From a virus, in the IMG/VR virus record IMGVR_UViG_3300028377_000005, positions 51,648-115,647 of that record: a DNA stretch of 64,000 nt. The stretch is one strand, 5' to 3'. The notes beneath the pieces were generated by a model. The model saw only the letters and a list, made by a program, of their open reading frames with translations. It was not told the DNA's origin and searched no databases. Below, in pieces: positions 38,188 to 45,652 of this stretch. Position numbers and translations under genes: made by a program. Every line of letters starts with the position of its first letter. Position 1 is the stretch's first letter.

Positions 38188-38706
38188 TTAGCTCCGAAGG
38201 TAATCAATGGTGTCTTGGTCAACCTTTTTTGGTCCCTCTTTGACAACCACTTCAAAGTTTTTCGGGGTGATTTCGATCACCTGTTCCACATCTGTATCTT
38301 CGACACCGGTAGGTAGCTTGATGGACTTTTCACCAGTGGACGTCTTGACCCGGATCTTTTTCTTGTCCCGGAAAGGATTCGACGAGCGGTCTAGGAGTTC
38401 AACTTCCTGTTGGACCCAACCAGTTTCGTCGGCTTCACCTTTCTTGATAGGCTTCCCGTCCTTGTCAACACGACCTTTAGGTACCTTGTTGGCAACCTTG
38501 ATCTCACTGTCGTCTTCGGGGCCGTCTGTACCAAATAGCTTACCAAGCACGCCGCCCACATTAAACCTATCCCCTACGCCGAACATAAGCATAAGCACCG
38601 CAACTAACACGACACCGATCGATATGATAAGGGCTACCGGATAACGAAGCAGCCAAGTATAAGCCGTTTTGAAAGCCGCTTTTGTTTTTTGCCAGATGGA
38701 ATCCAT
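38188..38706 (-). CDS. N-terminally anchored membrane protein
   Basis: A 172-aa protein with one membrane span at about residues 22-45 (PVALIISIGVVLVAVLMLMF) and a long charged C-terminal part with Lys/Asp-rich stretches and VQQEVELLDRS. It is the first gene after the promoter at 38752-38780, so it heads the operon that runs into the replication genes. Function unknown; an inner-membrane spanin is one alternative, though it lacks an evident coiled coil. Confidence 0.6.
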   Translation of the reverse strand: MDSIWQKTKAAFKTAYTWLLRYPVALIISIGVVLVAVLMLMFGVGDRFNVGGVLGKLFGTDGPEDDSEIKVANKVPKGRVDKDGKPIKKGEADETGWVQQEVELLDRSSNPFRDKKKIRVKTSTGEKSIKLPTGVEDTDVEQVIEITPKNFEVVVKEGPKKVDQDTIDYLRS

Positions 38707-38780: not shown

Positions 38781-38798
38781 GGAGAGCGAGAAATAACA

Positions 38799-38834
38799 CC
38801 CTGACCGATACGTGATCAAGCGCATCGGTCAGGG
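38799..38834. terminator. Strong hairpin closing the late unit
   Basis: CCCTGACCGAT (38799-38809) pairs with ATCGGTCAGGG (38824-38834), an exact 11-bp stem. The plus-strand tail is CTTTTTG; the minus-strand tail is TGTTATTTC. It separates the late genes from the replication promoter and may act in both directions. Confidence 0.75.
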
Positions 38835-38842
38835 CTTTTTGT

Positions 38843-39139
38843 TTACTCTTCGGGCAGCGCTTTAGTTTCGGCCTTGGCGTCTTTCTTGCTTTTGAAAAAG
38901 TCAGCCACGGGACCGGTAAATTTCTTACCGCCGTTGTAGGCAAGAAGTCCCCAGAATGCGTCCATAAGGTATGGGGGCATGGTTGACGCCGTTGCCCACA
39001 TATAAACCATCATCCCGAAAACGATCCAGTTCATCGATCGTCCAAGGGATAGGTGGCCGTCTTCAAGCAAAACAGACCCGAACTTGATCTCCTTGAAACG
39101 ATCTAGCCAGTCCTTAAAAATGTTCTTGTCTTTTTCCAT
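38843..39139 (-). CDS. Small membrane protein, possible holin
   Basis: A 98-aa protein: amphipathic start, then GRSMNWIVFGMMVYMWATA (about 34-52) and PYLMDAFWGLLAYNGG (about 56-71) as two hydrophobic segments, and a Lys/Glu-rich C-terminus. This size and layout suit phage holins (class II), as does the location at the end of the late unit, but no endolysin gene is visible nearby. AGGTGAC precedes the ATG. Confidence 0.55.
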   Translation of the reverse strand: MEKDKNIFKDWLDRFKEIKFGSVLLEDGHLSLGRSMNWIVFGMMVYMWATASTMPPYLMDAFWGLLAYNGGKKFTGPVADFFKSKKDAKAETKALPEE

Positions 39140-39150
39140 TGCGTCACCTG

Positions 39151-40278
39151 TTAAGTTATGTAGGGTAAGTGCAGGGTAAAGGTCGTTCCTTGACCGGGTT
39201 CACTATCGACCTCGATGCTCCCCCCTGCATCCATTACGAATTGATAAATAAAATACCCACCAAGTCCGGTGCCCGTGTCTCGTTCTCGCGTCGTAAAGTA
39301 AGGTGCAAATACGTTTTGGGTGGCCTCTTCGTCCATCCCGCAACCATTATCTTCGAACTCCATAACCACGCAGTGATGGTGGTGTGTTTTTTCACATGCT
39401 CGGGTTCTGATTTCCATCCGGGCATCGGTGGCCAAGTGATCTGTGGCGCGGATAGCATTGTCAAACAGGTTAGTGAGCGTCTGGTAAAACCGGGATTTAC
39501 TCAACCGGACTACTTTGCCTACACCGTATTCGATATCAGCCTCGAAATGGCCGATGTACCTCTTGCCGGGTTCGATGTAGAACATCGTGCGGCAATAATG
39601 CTCAATGCTGTGGCCTAGATCGATCCGGTCATGCTGTTCGTTGAGTTCACGAATAGGTTCGGTCATATTGTTCAGGATCTCTGAGACGCGCCCTAACGTG
39701 TCCATGACCTTATCTGCCACTGCACCTTGTTCCCCTTGCTGAAGCACCTCTGTATATCCCCTAGCGATTGCTAATGGTGTTTTGAGTTCGTGGGAGATAC
39801 CGAAGAGCATGATCTGTAAGCGTTCGGCCCATTTGCGTTCTTCACGGGCCACGAGGACTTCCTCATTCACCTGAAGGCTTTCAAGAAGGACGAGGCAATA
39901 GCCCTCTTTCGGATGCTTGTAGATGCGGAGCATTGTGGGGTCTGCGAGGCCCTGTAATTGGATACCATGAGCCGCAAAAGGTTGGAGCGTGGTTTCCACT
40001 TCAAGGATATGTTTGAAGGTGCCGCGATCTTCAGGGACAAGGAACGCCGCGAAGTCCATACCCACATTTTTTTCAAGGCCACCTTTGAAAAAAATGTGGG
40101 CTGTCTTGTTGAAGTGCTGGATCTTGCCGTTCATGTCAGTGACAACGGCAAGATTGATGTTGTTGCGGTAACTTGGGAGGGAAGTAAGGCCCGACGTTAG
40201 ACGTTTAGCTCGCTTTATCAGCCACCATTTCCGAAAGGAACTGAGCCAGTTTTGCAGATGAGAAATGATCTTTTTCAT
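39151..40278 (-). CDS. PAS-containing sensor histidine kinase
   Basis: A 375-aa kinase. A basic N-terminus is followed by a PAS-like sensor domain (about 42-135). Then come the HisKA H-box with phospho-His163 (GISHELKTPLA) and a HATPase_c domain with N-box NLFDNAIRATD (Asn274), G1 EFEDNGCGMD, an F-box with FAPYFTT and G2 GTGLGGYFIYQF. No membrane segment is present, so it is cytoplasmic. The start at 40278 (GGGGAG upstream) overlaps the response regulator gene by 74 bases. All catalytic boxes look intact. Two-component kinases are rare in phages, and this one is embedded in the late gene block. Confidence 0.88.
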   Translation of the reverse strand: MKKIISHLQNWLSSFRKWWLIKRAKRLTSGLTSLPSYRNNINLAVVTDMNGKIQHFNKTAHIFFKGGLEKNVGMDFAAFLVPEDRGTFKHILEVETTLQPFAAHGIQLQGLADPTMLRIYKHPKEGYCLVLLESLQVNEEVLVAREERKWAERLQIMLFGISHELKTPLAIARGYTEVLQQGEQGAVADKVMDTLGRVSEILNNMTEPIRELNEQHDRIDLGHSIEHYCRTMFYIEPGKRYIGHFEADIEYGVGKVVRLSKSRFYQTLTNLFDNAIRATDHLATDARMEIRTRACEKTHHHHCVVMEFEDNGCGMDEEATQNVFAPYFTTRERDTGTGLGGYFIYQFVMDAGGSIEVDSEPGQGTTFTLHLPYIT

Positions 40279-40591
40279 AGACTTGCTCCCCCGTGTCTTG
40301 TGCGGCAATGAATTCCGGGCTTTGTTGGTGGCAGCCAGTCAAGAAAATGACAGGAGGGTAATAGTCGTGGTTGTGCAACCACTGGTAGAAGTCAAGCCCT
40401 CCCTCCCCATTGATGATCAGATCAATGATAACAGCGTCGGGTTCACCGTGTTCGATCATATAGGCTTTGGCGCGGTTGATAGCATGTGCTTTTTCCGTGC
40501 AAATTTCTACGTCGAAACGGGCCGACAATGTGACCTTGAGCATGGTCGCCATTTCACTGTCGTCTTCAATCACGAGCACTTTGGGCTTCAT
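40205..40591 (-). CDS. Receiver-only response regulator
   Basis: A 128-aa CheY-like protein with the acidic pair Asp10/Asp11, phospho-acceptor Asp57 (VIIDLIING), Thr85 (FLTG) and Lys107 (YEKDH), so it should accept phosphate. There is no DNA-binding or enzyme output domain. GGAG precedes the ATG. It overlaps the kinase gene in another frame and is surely its partner. The output must be through protein contacts, with host or phage partners (inference). Confidence 0.88.
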   Translation of the reverse strand: MKPKVLVIEDDSEMATMLKVTLSARFDVEICTEKAHAINRAKAYMIEHGEPDAVIIDLIINGEGGLDFYQWLHNHDYYPPVIFLTGCHQQSPEFIAAQDTGEQVYEKDHFSSAKLAQFLSEMVADKAS

Positions 40592-40607: not shown

Positions 40608-41057
40608 TTAATCGGTAGAAGGCTTGCCTACTACTTGAGAATCGGGATCTCCGTTCGCTTTTTCTATCTTCAGGTCCGTGTTGGCAATGTACAGAGATAC
40701 GGCCCCGGCTGCTAATGAAATCAGCAGAGGCCAAACCCACTTGAGCATCTTCACTGAGCCTTGGATCTCTTTGATGGAGTCCCGGTTTTCTTGGCTGTTT
40801 TTGCCTGCTTTTTCGATCGTGGTATTTTGATTTCTGAGAGTCTCTTCCACACGGGAAAGTGTACTACTTACCTCCCCCACATCCGAAGAAATGTTCCCGA
40901 GCGCCTTTTCTTGCTTCTCCATGTCACTGTGGACTTGGGAGATAAACTTGAATAGCTGATCGTCACGTGTTTTGCGTACCGATTTTTCGGCAATCAAACG
41001 CTCTTCCATCCGGGTCAGACGTTCTTTTACTCCATCAATTTTGTCGTCATCTGCCAT
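40608..41057 (-). CDS. Coiled-coil protein with C-terminal membrane anchor
   Basis: A 149-aa protein: residues 1-105 are a long coiled coil (KERLTRMEERLIAEKS, then VSSTLSRVEETLRNQN), and 108-130 are a membrane span (WVWPLLISLAAGAVSLYI), with a short polar tail. This order is that of XhlA-type holin/hemolysin proteins and of some membrane-tethered phage regulators. It is directly upstream of the response regulator gene, so a lysis or signalling role is plausible. Confidence 0.6.
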   Translation of the reverse strand: MADDDKIDGVKERLTRMEERLIAEKSVRKTRDDQLFKFISQVHSDMEKQEKALGNISSDVGEVSSTLSRVEETLRNQNTTIEKAGKNSQENRDSIKEIQGSVKMLKWVWPLLISLAAGAVSLYIANTDLKIEKANGDPDSQVVGKPSTD

Positions 41058-41069
41058 AGCGCCCCCGGC

Positions 41070-41240
41070 TTATTCTCTGAGACGTTGCGTTAATTTACGA
41101 AGCTGTTCCCGTAACTCTTTGCTTTGGTCATCCGTTAAATTAGGCCCTGCCAACTGACTCCGCACTTGGTCCATCCGTTTACGAATCGACTGGCGCTGTT
41201 TTTCAGTTGACAGGTCACTTAGTTTAATTTTCCGAATCAT
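41070..41240 (-). CDS. Small basic helical protein, 56 aa
   Basis: ATG at 41240 with GAGGTAAG just upstream, stop TAA at 41072-41070. The product is a Lys/Arg/Gln-rich helical protein (MIRKIKLSDLSTEKQRQSIR start, then LTDDQSKELREQLRKL). It fills the space between the 1467-aa virion gene and the coiled-coil protein, matching the tight packing around it. Function unknown. Confidence 0.6.
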   Translation of the reverse strand: MIRKIKLSDLSTEKQRQSIRKRMDQVRSQLAGPNLTDDQSKELREQLRKLTQRLRE

Positions 41241-41248
41241 TACTTACC

Positions 41249-44200
41249 TCAGCAATGGTCGTCAGTGGGGGGAGCAATTGGTCCCGAAGGGTCACGTCCT
41301 CGGAGGGCTTCAACGTCACCCTTTACATTGCGCATTCGCTTCTGTAACGGGCGGCCTTCGATTCGATAACGATCGGCGGCGCAATACCCTTCACCTGCTC
41401 CCATCGGATGCATCTGAATCAAGAGGTCTACAAACTCTTTAGTGTAATCTCCGGTCAAGTCCAATTCTTCACCAAGCGTCATGCCGGTCAGAACAAGCAT
41501 CTGGACTTCATCGCCGAAGCTCGCTTTCAGATCATCGTCAGTAACGACTTCGCTTTTGTTGCGCACCAAGAAAGCTACACCAAACAGGACGGCCCCATGC
41601 ATCTTGAGGTTTTTAGCATCCGGGTTGTTCAGGTACGGGAGGTCTTTGTAAGTACGTCCACCCGACATAACAACCGCACCACCGGGTTTACTACCGCTTG
41701 CTGTCATAACGGTACCACCACGCAATGTGCGGTAAAGCTCATGGGTGTGTTCGTATTGCAAACCGCTGGTTCCGTCGCTGAATACCATCGCACCACTAAG
41801 GGTCGTTTTGCTGAGGCGGCGATCACTATGGTAATCACCAAGAGTTTCCATTGACACGTCCGGTGTCCAGAACCGCTTGTAATCGCCCTGAACGCCTTCG
41901 CCGATGAACTGGTAGTCACTAACCATCAACCCGAGAGGCAAGCGCTCAGTGACGCCCCCAAGGGTTTCAGATAGTGAGGGAGCTACCGTCTCCCCCGATT
42001 GCGTGTAGGGGTGTGCCCTAGACAGAACCTTACGGTCGTCGTCGGTTAGCGCCTCAAAAGGATAACCCGACAAGTCAAGGTACCCAATGTCTGTATACGA
42101 CCCCGGAACCACGGGACCACTGACGACGCCTGTTCCTAGAGTTGTAGCGAAGGGCAAAGCTGCTAGGATCTCTAGCGTGCCGGGGTTAGACACACGCACG
42201 TCTTCTTCGACATCGAAAGACGTCAAGAGGTCAAGCACATTGGCTTGGCTTTCGGTGTTACGCTTCGGGGTGTAATCCACGTAATCCACCGAAGACGTGT
42301 CCGTTGTCGCTGTCGGCATCGTACCATAGATCGAACCTTGATACGGCACCCGCGTATTAATCAGAAAGAACTCATCGCCAGTTTCCGCTGGCCCGTTCAC
42401 GAACATTTGGAAACTGTTCGAAAGCGCCGTGGAGGTAATGGTTCGTTTGTGAATGCGCATCAGGTCCGCTTTCCAATCATCGAAAAGGAACGCGGCAAAC
42501 TCAAACACTAGGGGTTGCCCCTCTAGGTCATCGCTTAAATAGTTCTGGTCAAGAGCGTCTTCTGGGATCACGAACGTGTTGTCATCCGTGATAATCAAAG
42601 AACGACGCTCCGCATCCGTCCGCAAAATGTTTGGGCGGTCTACACCCGAGGCAACACGATGTTGCGGACCGGAAAAGATACTGCTGCCCGGCGAAATATT
42701 GTAGTAATCATCTTGCGTATGTGCTGCGAACAGGCGAGCAACACCGAAATGAGCCGGAAGTTCAATCCCCCGGACACCACCTTTGTTATAGTAACGGCAA
42801 ACAAGAGCGCTTTGACCTCCGGGACCGCTACCAACTCCCGCCAAATCGAGGTAGCTTCCGAAGTCTGTATCCGTCATATTGACAGGATCGTATACGGCCA
42901 CCATTTTCTGGGACAAAAAGTTAGCCGTATTGAGGTCGGGACTACCCGATAGGAACGTACAGTTTAGCCCGTAAGCCGGTTCTGTCGAAGTTGCAGGCAC
43001 TGACGCCTTGGACTTGACAAAAGGAATGTCAATCCGTCCTAGCGAGGGTCGAAGCTCTTTGGGAACCACAACACTAGCATCGGAATCACCCGGTACTAGA
43101 TTGAATTCACCTGTGGGGTCCGTATAGGAGATAGCACTCGGGTTGCTTTGGAGGTCGAGACGTGCCGATACATTGCGCACAGGCTGGTAAAGGACCGTTT
43201 TAGACCCTCTATCCACATAGGCTTCTGCCCATACGGATTCAGGGCCTTTCGCAACATCTTGGGGATCCCGAACCTGCAGTTCTTTGTTCTGTTTGTGCGG
43301 GTAAGCCGTCAAAGATACAACAGGGCTTTTCTTTACCGTGGCTGCAGGGGAATCAGCAACATTTTGGTAGTCGTTTTCCCGGAGGTAATTAGCCCCAACG
43401 CCCGGATTTAGTTCAACATGCAATGCTTCATCCGGGACACGGCTGAGGCCGCGAGCCGGGTGGTACAGAAGATCATACGACACATTAAGCGACGACTCGA
43501 CCGCCGTGGCTGTTGCATTGGTGAGGACAATTGCCATGTCCTCATCATTCTCGTGGCATTCCGTAAGGCGGAGCGACCATGTACGGTTGTCCGTGTTGGC
43601 CGAGAAACCTGTTGTTCCTCCATCTGCGGCAACCACCTCAAGGTTGCCACTACCATCGACTCCGGTGATTCGGAACGCACCGTGGTTTTCAGGGTGCGTT
43701 GAAGTTGCCGTAGACCCTGCTGTGATCAGGATCCACGCACCGGCATTGAGCAACGCTGTTTCATCCGCCGCCGTAAAAGTGGTCCCTGAGATTTGAACTA
43801 CATCAGGAGTGCCGGGTACAAAAGTAAGATCATTTTGGCCTTCTGAAGAAACCGAAAGACCATCGACCTTCGATCCGAGGACCATAAACCAAGGATCGGC
43901 GTCCGTGGATTCCAGTGTCAAGGGAGCGTCTTTGCCTGCCGCACCATCAGCCGGGTCGGTGTCGCCAAACCAAATACGCACAGGGCTGTGACTAGATCCG
44001 TCGTACTCAAACGGATGTACGAAACGCACTTTACGGTTGTTGGGTGCCGACAACGGGAACGTAGCGCGGTACTGATCAAGGTCGAGAAGGACTACATCAT
44101 TTTGGCCCCAATTCTCAGCGCTTGAGGAGTTATAGCGATGAATAGTGGCATTGGGGTTTAGCGTCAGATCAGACGAATCTTCCGACGAACCCGAAGTACC

Positions 44201-45652
44201 CAACACCATCAGGTTATTGGGCTGCAGGGTACTGGCGTCACTGAACACTTTGCGCTTCCCATCGGGAGCGTCAGCTTTGATTGTATAGTCTGGCGCTACC
44301 GAACCCGCCCCGAAATAGTCGATCTGGAAATGTTTACGGCCTTTCACATTAGCCGAGGAACGTTTCCACGAAGTTGCCATTTCACCTTTGATAAGATCAT
44401 CAAAGTTTTTGCGAAGTAGCCCGTCGTAATCTAACCCGTCCATCGAAATGACGTGGCGGATATCGAGTACATCGTCCGGGGTAATCTGGTCACTGAACAA
44501 CCCGAGGGGGTGCCCGGACACAAAGTCTACCGAAGCGCTTACATCATGCGACGTGGCATGGGAATCACGAGCACCACGTTCGCTAATTGTGATCGTAGTA
44601 GCTGTGTAATCACTGTACTCCATGATCTCACCATCTACACGAAGCAAACCACCACCGGAGTCTAAGGTGGTAGCACTTTGCGTTGTGTCGACAGAGATAA
44701 CCGTGTCGGTTGCGCTCATGTCAGCGGTGATTTTGACGGTCGGGAGCACCTTGGCTTCCGACCGATCTGTCATATCAGGGTTACGATCAAAGGCACCATG
44801 CTGCTGCGTCTTGGTCCAGCTAAGGGTTGTGCGGCGGAAAACCATGCAAAGGGGTACCGCATACACATAACCATCCACGGTCCCAACCAGACCCGATTCA
44901 CCGTCACCATCACCGGCCCTCCACAGGCCCGGATCACCAAGCTCTTCTTTCATGTTGGTGAACTGGTAAGCCGGGTTGGCACTCGTGGTCGGGTTATCTA
45001 GCGTGCCTTGAGCCTTGACGCCCGGCGAAAAGCCGTGGGGATACAAAGCCGGGTTCACACCGGGAACCACGCGGAGGCGGTATTGCAATTGCACCCGTTC
45101 CGTGGTTTCAAAAAGGATAGCCGGATCTAGCAAATCATTATCGAGGTTTGTGCCCCCATACTCTACATTGCCGTACTTGTAAAGCTGGCTTTCCGAGGGT
45201 TTATTAACCGCACCGTCAGGGCTGACCTGTGATTTCCAGACCTCAAGGAACACGAAATTCACATCCGATTCCGAGGGAGTCCCCGAAGGCGGCGGAAGCA
45301 TGATCGAATTTTTCGTATCATTGGATTGAGTGCCAACGACTGGAATCAACCAACCATTGACATTCGCCCAGACAATATCCCCTTCACTATTTGCCCGGTC
45401 TTTACCTAACCAGAACATGTTCGAAGCTTGTCTATCAAACTCAAAGTCCGCCCGTGGATCGTATGCATTACTAATCCAGCCAGACGACACATTCGCTGAC
45501 ACGATGGTTTGACGGGCTTCCTCAGTCAATTGGGTAAGGAGGTTGAACTCCGCATCCAGAGGAGGCTTGCCACGCTGCCATACGATGTTGACGAACTGTC
45601 GGGCTTTTGCGGATAGGTTACGGGATACGCCGTCGCCGAAGAATTCCGACAT
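41249..45652 (-). CDS. Giant virion protein, paralogue of the 51950 product
   Basis: A 1467-aa beta-rich protein. The first 290 residues are parallel to the N-terminus of the 850-aa protein at 51950: QRGKPPLDAEFNL, SGW, NVNGWLIPV, PPPSGTP, FVFLEVWKS, NKPSE, YKYGNVEYGG, DLLDPAILFETTERVQLQYR and YVYAVPLCMVFRR. The GKPPLD(A/S)EFNL block is typical of large phage structural proteins. The rest is many beta domains, with a loop-rich C-terminus (ending GRDPSGPIAPP). Likely a tail, baseplate or fibre component. First of the late genes above the small membrane-protein group. Confidence 0.7.
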   Translation of the reverse strand: MSEFFGDGVSRNLSAKARQFVNIVWQRGKPPLDAEFNLLTQLTEEARQTIVSANVSSGWISNAYDPRADFEFDRQASNMFWLGKDRANSEGDIVWANVNGWLIPVVGTQSNDTKNSIMLPPPSGTPSESDVNFVFLEVWKSQVSPDGAVNKPSESQLYKYGNVEYGGTNLDNDLLDPAILFETTERVQLQYRLRVVPGVNPALYPHGFSPGVKAQGTLDNPTTSANPAYQFTNMKEELGDPGLWRAGDGDGESGLVGTVDGYVYAVPLCMVFRRTTLSWTKTQQHGAFDRNPDMTDRSEAKVLPTVKITADMSATDTVISVDTTQSATTLDSGGGLLRVDGEIMEYSDYTATTITISERGARDSHATSHDVSASVDFVSGHPLGLFSDQITPDDVLDIRHVISMDGLDYDGLLRKNFDDLIKGEMATSWKRSSANVKGRKHFQIDYFGAGSVAPDYTIKADAPDGKRKVFSDASTLQPNNLMVLGTSGSSEDSSDLTLNPNATIHRYNSSSAENWGQNDVVLLDLDQYRATFPLSAPNNRKVRFVHPFEYDGSSHSPVRIWFGDTDPADGAAGKDAPLTLESTDADPWFMVLGSKVDGLSVSSEGQNDLTFVPGTPDVVQISGTTFTAADETALLNAGAWILITAGSTATSTHPENHGAFRITGVDGSGNLEVVAADGGTTGFSANTDNRTWSLRLTECHENDEDMAIVLTNATATAVESSLNVSYDLLYHPARGLSRVPDEALHVELNPGVGANYLRENDYQNVADSPAATVKKSPVVSLTAYPHKQNKELQVRDPQDVAKGPESVWAEAYVDRGSKTVLYQPVRNVSARLDLQSNPSAISYTDPTGEFNLVPGDSDASVVVPKELRPSLGRIDIPFVKSKASVPATSTEPAYGLNCTFLSGSPDLNTANFLSQKMVAVYDPVNMTDTDFGSYLDLAGVGSGPGGQSALVCRYYNKGGVRGIELPAHFGVARLFAAHTQDDYYNISPGSSIFSGPQHRVASGVDRPNILRTDAERRSLIITDDNTFVIPEDALDQNYLSDDLEGQPLVFEFAAFLFDDWKADLMRIHKRTITSTALSNSFQMFVNGPAETGDEFFLINTRVPYQGSIYGTMPTATTDTSSVDYVDYTPKRNTESQANVLDLLTSFDVEEDVRVSNPGTLEILAALPFATTLGTGVVSGPVVPGSYTDIGYLDLSGYPFEALTDDDRKVLSRAHPYTQSGETVAPSLSETLGGVTERLPLGLMVSDYQFIGEGVQGDYKRFWTPDVSMETLGDYHSDRRLSKTTLSGAMVFSDGTSGLQYEHTHELYRTLRGGTVMTASGSKPGGAVVMSGGRTYKDLPYLNNPDAKNLKMHGAVLFGVAFLVRNKSEVVTDDDLKASFGDEVQMLVLTGMTLGEELDLTGDYTKEFVDLLIQMHPMGAGEGYCAADRYRIEGRPLQKRMRNVKGDVEALRGRDPSGPIAPPTDDHC

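Follow-up and report, generated by a model that had tools for sequence, protein, structure and literature searches.

The agr locus (AgrD-AgrB-AgrC) of phage phiCDHM1 includes a phage-encoded histidine kinase of the AgrC quorum-sensing type (PMC3901668), and no response regulator was found in that phage. In Alteromonas phage V22, CDS-30 has been described as a "histidine kinase/response regulator (CheY-like)" and as a class II AMG (PMC7289586). The protein PIT4 of phage LSL4 binds host kinases (PMC10714779), and a divergent receiver domain of jumbo phages, which is linked to NAD/ADP-ribose enzymes, is reported never to occur together with histidine kinases (PMC7824862). Our search of the open-licence literature found neither a phage-encoded pair of histidine kinase and response regulator nor a receiver implicated in lysis.

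The stretch of DNA analyzed here (the window, 64,000 nucleotides) comprises bases 51648–115647 of a 115,647-base virus record (IMGVR_UViG_3300028377_000005). The window contains genes of phage replication, namely those of a DNA polymerase, a DnaB-type helicase, and a primase, and virion genes are encoded by the window and the remainder of the record. As far as can be read from its sequence, this is a virus of bacteria with its own complete pair of a sensor histidine kinase (HK) and a receiver (RR), intact in three distant phages. The original prediction of a complete, intact two-component system in a phage was thereby strengthened. Like phiCDHM1, the window phage encodes a histidine kinase, but it also encodes a response regulator, and the families matched by the adjacent genes included neither agrB nor agrD, which does not fit a phiCDHM1-type agr kinase. 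RR shares the receiver fold with the divergent domain of jumbo phages but is of the conventional, phosphorylatable kind and has its own HK as a neighbor. The domain chemistry of the pair is the same as that of bacterial ZraS/NtrB-type PAS-HisKA kinases and OmpR/PhoP-family receivers. Comparison with these systems revealed that (i) RR did not have an output domain; (ii) HK did not have a transmembrane sensor and had a predicted amphipathic N-terminal helix instead; and (iii) both proteins were phage-encoded. A pooled scan of the remaining ORFs of the same record returned a eukaryote-type topoisomerase IB, a protein of the RNA 2'-phosphotransferase (Tpt1) family, and two NinI-like phosphatase matches. 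Rfam and tRNA scans gave no match, and promoter matches were fewer than in shuffles.

HK (39151–40278, minus strand; 375 aa) is composed of a PAS-like sensor, a HisKA DHp domain (E=2.8e-9), and a HATPase_c domain (E=8.7e-22). The H box FGISHELKTPLA with H163 (codon 39790–39792, minus strand), the N box NLFDNAIRA, the G1 box DNGCGMD, the F box PYFTTR, and the G2 box TGTGLGG are all conserved in three phages; these boxes and the Pfam matches bear out the kinase with intact H, N, G1, F, and G2 boxes that had been predicted. The best sequence match of HK was ZraS (1.4e-15), and its HELKT motif (E-x-x-T) suggests that HK may have phosphatase activity as well. The start codon is the ATG at 40278. 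A longer ORF beginning with TTG from 40308 is unlikely, because the ATG has a Shine-Dalgarno sequence and the same start position is found in both relatives described below. The HK orthologues of these two relatives are 41% and 43% identical to the window HK. By domain, the identities between the window and the two relatives are 58/54% in the DHp domain, 50/54% in the catalytic domain, and 21/21% in the PAS region, which indicates a phosphotransfer core under constraint and a sensor free to change.

The assignment of the sensor as PAS stood in part. AlphaFold predicted a PAS topology for the HK N-terminal region (pLDDT mostly 70–85), and the best structural matches of the HK model, which is poor overall and in its kinase half, included PAS/LOV-HisKA kinases. 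By contrast, the PAS of the window HK fell below the Pfam cut-off (E=0.078). A profile search gave no PAS match for the orthologue of one relative (L010). A perfect hairpin with 16-nt arms (40061–40100, minus strand) is located in the coding sequence of the PAS region and is missing from both relatives. The 115-kb record has only three hairpins with arms of at least 12 nt, of which this is the only one outside intergenic DNA, and no hairpin of such arm length was seen in shuffled sequence.

Residues 1–26 of HK (40201–40278, minus strand) form a Trp/Lys/Arg-rich amphipathic helix, which a HeliQuest-type discriminant predicts to be an in-plane membrane anchor. The discriminant for this segment was 2.2–2.7 in all three phages, compared with a maximum of 1.25–1.69 elsewhere in the proteins, and the first 26 residues are Trp/Phe- and Lys/Arg-rich in 3/3 phages. 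The hydrophobic moment of the window helix is low, and charge drives its lipid-binding score. On the basis of this helix, HK is probably membrane-associated, and its earlier description as a soluble kinase is doubtful.

RR (40205–40591, minus strand; 128 aa) is a stand-alone receiver (PF00072, E=8.7e-12). The residues E9/D10/D11, D57 (the phospho-acceptor; codon 40421–40423, minus strand), T85, and K107 are kept in 3/3 phages, and the AlphaFold model has the canonical (βα)5 receiver fold with a mean pLDDT of 87.8. The acidic pair, Asp, Thr, Lys, and receiver fold are thus all present in a protein that has no output domain, in agreement with the predicted receiver-only regulator with an intact Asp57 and no DNA-binding domain. 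The matches of RR were mostly OmpR-type receivers, and a structure search also found receivers. RR is 61% and 48% identical to its orthologues in the two relatives. In a post hoc count across the three phages, 22/32 positions of β4-α4-β5 were invariant compared with 21/72 positions in helices 1–3 and 5; this conservation reflects partly the active site and partly the usual output face. No close cellular source of RR was found, the cellular receivers being 25–39% identical and generic.

The genes of RR and HK overlap by 74 nt in different frames (40205–40278, minus strand), as originally noted, and the common DNA encodes α5 of RR and the N-terminal helix of HK. The overlap is 71 nt in both relatives (L006 and L010). 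The Shine-Dalgarno sequence of HK (GGGGGAG, 40286–40292, minus strand) lies within the RR codons of the invariant T100-G101-E102, and the arrangement is the same in both relatives. HK and RR, putative cognate partners, are adjacent, overlapping, and co-conserved in three phages, and both are missing from that place in a fourth. Phosphotransfer from HK to RR is very probable.

The relatives with the pair are IMGVR 3300012271_000005 (125 kb) and 3300021978_000001 (437 kb). The order of genes common to the window and both relatives is that of a tail-fibre-like 1467-aa protein, CC149, RR, HK, TM98, TM172, P208, P88, and a helicase. The helicase and/or DnaB-like genes of relatives (L006, L010, L014, and L058) are roughly twice as long (for example, 1392 and 998 aa versus 563 and 509), which is consistent with inteins in the relatives, the window copies being uninterrupted. 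Many HK/RR matches in phage collections stem from bacterial DNA deposited there by mistake, a point in favor of regarding the pair as contamination or as a non-functional relic. Several such matches were removed by hand, and the "phage" records MW462191.1, MW495066.1, OQ572403.1, OQ658365.1, and OQ572412.1 (L060, L061, L089, L090, and L091) were set aside, the inspected stretches resembling bacterial chromosome. Against such an origin of the window pair, three independent phage records have conserved synteny, intact frames, and intact catalytic residues at 41–61% protein identity; synteny and motifs in three phages refute contamination or decay as far as sequence can, and we consider either to be extremely improbable.

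In the fourth phage, 3300045922_000293 (L009), CC149, RR, and HK are missing at the locus, and the flanking genes (the tail-fibre-like protein, TM98, TM172, P208, P88, and the helicase) are kept. Profile searches of the whole L009 record found no RR and no CC149, and its single HATPase match belongs to a 664-aa frame far from the locus, at 74 kb. Because exactly CC149, RR, and HK are missing from a backbone that is otherwise kept, the three genes appear to come and go as one module. In most shared genes, L009 diverges more than any of the other three phages, which suggests that the simpler history would be a gain of the module in the common ancestor of those three, a loss being possible. In the 485-kb relative LR745208, the nearest huge phage in the phage collection, the same slot contains a holin (phrog_1299, 2.8e-5) and neither a kinase nor a receiver.

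CC149 (40608–41057, minus strand) consists of a coiled coil and one C-terminal transmembrane segment and was found only where RR and HK are present. Its identification as an XhlA-type lysis protein was rejected, as the window protein scored 16.9 bits against Pfam XhlA, below the cut-off of 34.7, and its orthologues had no match. On the other side of the pair, directly after HK, is TM98 (38843–39139, minus strand), a small, weakly hydrophobic protein also present in the phage without the two-component system. The earlier placement of the pair between a coiled-coil membrane-anchored protein and a holin-like protein holds for CC149; the holin-like label of TM98 stems solely from a match to phrog_785 (E=0.045) that its orthologues do not share. 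TM172 (38188–38706, minus strand) has an N-terminal transmembrane segment, and P208 (37522–38148, minus strand) is an exported protein with a signal-peptide-like N terminus and a β-rich C terminus. In L009, TM172 and P208 are fused into one ORF, which suggests that the two proteins may work together across the envelope. The position of P208 would be spanin-like; no homology was found between P208 and the spanin-like 286-aa protein of jumbo phage G005. Overall, holin or spanin matches for CC149, TM98, TM172, and P208 were weak or absent.

A terminator-like hairpin of 15 pairs (38798–38835, minus strand) follows TM98 in the window, between TM98 and TM172. In the relatives, the TM98 and TM172 genes overlap instead. 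The proposed location of the pair at the end of the virion transcription unit is in keeping with this strong hairpin and with the tail-fibre-like upstream gene; however, the genes of both relatives continue without a gap into TM172 and P208. The upstream gene (41249–45652, minus strand; phrog_1101 tail, 3.1e-6) encodes the 1467-aa protein, the N terminus of which is common to the tail fibre gp247 of Tunturi_5. Between this gene and CC149 is an ORF encoding 56 residues, basic and helical (41070–41240, minus strand), with a 57-aa counterpart in L006. No endolysin was found beside the HK/RR pair of the window. The 115.6-kb record has a single recognized murein enzyme, a DPBB lytic transglycosylase, encoded at approximately 18.4 kb, which is approximately 72 kb from the pair.

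A structure search of the window RR against viral proteins identified the receiver of V22, an isolated Alteromonas phage, with the gene order of tail fibre, tail-fibre chaperone, C92 amidase, a protein with a hydrophobic N terminus and a coiled-coil-like region, RR, Rz-like spanin (7e-6), and a protein with two transmembrane segments (2TM). Further cassettes came from a receiver survey that took receivers from such cassettes as queries, covered mostly Alteromonas phages, and was small, not exhaustive, and query-biased. In PT15-A5 (Schitoviridae), the order is a transmembrane coil, RR, spanin (2.9e-8), 2TM protein, and endolysin; in R9Y1 and R9Y2, a transmembrane coil and RR are followed by an endolysin (1.1e-38), whose gene is overlapped by that of the receiver; and in the Foturvirus phages R8W and H4/4 (Autographiviridae), a long tail fibre is followed by a class II holin, a 1TM protein, and RR. 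The receiver of R9Y3 resembles that of R9Y2. In the IMG/VR contig L085, an overlapping pair of Rz-like and Rz1-like (lipobox) genes is located directly behind the receiver. In L073 (25749–26577), L074 (5122–6007), and L085 (4001–5043), the receiver gene overlaps the start of the Rz-like spanin gene by approximately 32–35 nt, so that the receiver C terminus and the spanin N terminus are encoded by common DNA, which echoes the RR/HK overlap of the window. The layout is looser in G005, with a spanin-like protein, C92 amidase, RR, transmembrane protein, and hybrid HK. Beyond the hybrid HK, this 278-kb record (IMGVR 3300028549_001457; L071 and L072) encodes another HK-receiver pair as well as stand-alone receivers. 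The presence of stand-alone receivers and HKs in this jumbo phage is a feature in common with the window, one receiver being beside C92 amidase and spanin-like genes; unlike in the window, its kinases are transmembrane or hybrid, its receivers are canonical and CheY-like, and its layout is not homologous to CC149-RR-HK. The PhoP-like protein of Stenotrophomonas phage Bhz63, a receiver with an output domain outside a lysis cassette, and the receivers of Streptococcus records, which by annotation have output domains, are not stand-alone and were not counted.

Like the window RR, the receivers of the Alteromonas phages (V22, PT15-A5, R9Y1–3, R8W, and H4/4) are stand-alone with an intact Asp. In V22, PT15-A5, R9Y1, R9Y2, R8W, and H4/4, the receiver directly follows a small protein whose single hydrophobic segment is N-terminal and whose tail is coiled-coil-like, and it is also beside tail-fibre and lysis genes. 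The receivers of V22 and PT15-A5 are 45% identical, and the homologous module, present in different kinds of phages, appears to travel as a unit. The receivers of V22, PT15-A5, R9Y1, and R9Y2 are 18–24% identical to the window RR. CC149 had no detectable homology to the coiled-coil proteins of the Alteromonas phages, and its transmembrane segment is at the C terminus, whereas theirs is at the N terminus. The module of the window clade, including its own kinase, looks like an independent recruitment.

No kinase domain above the cut-off was found in V22, PT15-A5, R9Y1, R9Y2, R8W, and H4/4, the six records searched (R9Y3 not among them), whereas the window clade brings its own HK. Having no phage kinase, the Alteromonas receivers presumably obtain phosphate from the host. 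Receivers that stand alone often serve as relays or sinks, and the window pair could likewise plug into host signaling, where it would phosphorylate, drain, or compete with host phosphorelay proteins as a phosphate sink or Spo0F/DivK-like relay and reprogram the host, its late-gene position being incidental. Interference of phages with host two-component systems has precedents in PIT4 of LSL4 (PMC10714779) and in the AgrC without AgrA of phiCDHM1 (PMC3901668). However, the kinase of the window clade comes from the phage itself, is tightly coupled, and is conserved together with a single membrane protein; the cellular receivers found are only 25–39% identical and generic; and the recurrent lysis-slot position would be left unexplained. 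We regard action on host signaling as fairly unlikely.

The preferred reading is a phage-owned phosphorelay that acts by protein contact on the membrane or lysis machinery in a lineage of huge phages, for which we see an even chance. The system would act at the inner membrane and probably during late infection, with HK anchored there through the amphipathic helix of its N terminus. HK would read a cytosolic or membrane signal via its PAS-like domain, for which the sensing of redox, ligand, or energy state had been suggested earlier. HK would autophosphorylate on His163, hand the phosphate to Asp57 of RR, and probably also dephosphorylate RR. Phosphorylation would alter the α4-β5 face of RR, which would dock onto membrane-anchored CC149, and this contact would gate TM98, TM172, and P208 of the same operon and thereby time the opening of the envelope or lysis. 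That CC149 is the partner of RR could go either way, and an output in lysis or at the envelope, which rests on gene context, is similarly balanced between true and false.

The usual explanation of lysis timing invokes holin clocks and antiholins. A role of the window pair in lysis timing, originally a guess, gains circumstantial support from an independent source, namely the stand-alone receivers in the lysis cassettes of unrelated phages; against it, no endolysin adjoins the window pair. Genomes frequently acquire small genes behind the tail-fibre genes, a general site for such additions, and small genes tend to collect near tail-fibre and lysis genes, so that position alone can mislead. The module could be cargo (a moron) that occupies an insertion hot spot and has another function, for example superinfection exclusion or envelope stress signaling, and its presence or absence in an otherwise constant backbone, together with the distant endolysin in the window, would fit such cargo. 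We nevertheless consider cargo of this kind unlikely, as the pair of a transmembrane or coiled-coil protein and a receiver recurs in several unrelated lineages, where the two genes often overlap by 4 nt or nearly abut and where the pair overlaps into a spanin or lysozyme gene; this recurrence, the tight spacing, and the overlap suggest that the pair may be a working unit. In a broader form of the phosphorelay reading, which we hold tentatively and at somewhat below even, phages would repeatedly have recruited phosphorylatable receivers and paired them with a small coiled-coil protein of the membrane to form a lysis switch under the control of a signal, and the huge-phage clade of the window would have made the switch autonomous by adding its own HK, yielding a phosphorelay that times lysis.

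The huge phages supply a natural presence/absence pair for the module, and the comparative pattern offers cultivable phages (Alteromonas V22, R8W, H4/4, and R9Y1) for direct testing. If the preferred reading is true, a phosphorelay that acts on the machinery of lysis or of the membrane would enable the phage to tie the burst decision to the sensed state of the cell.
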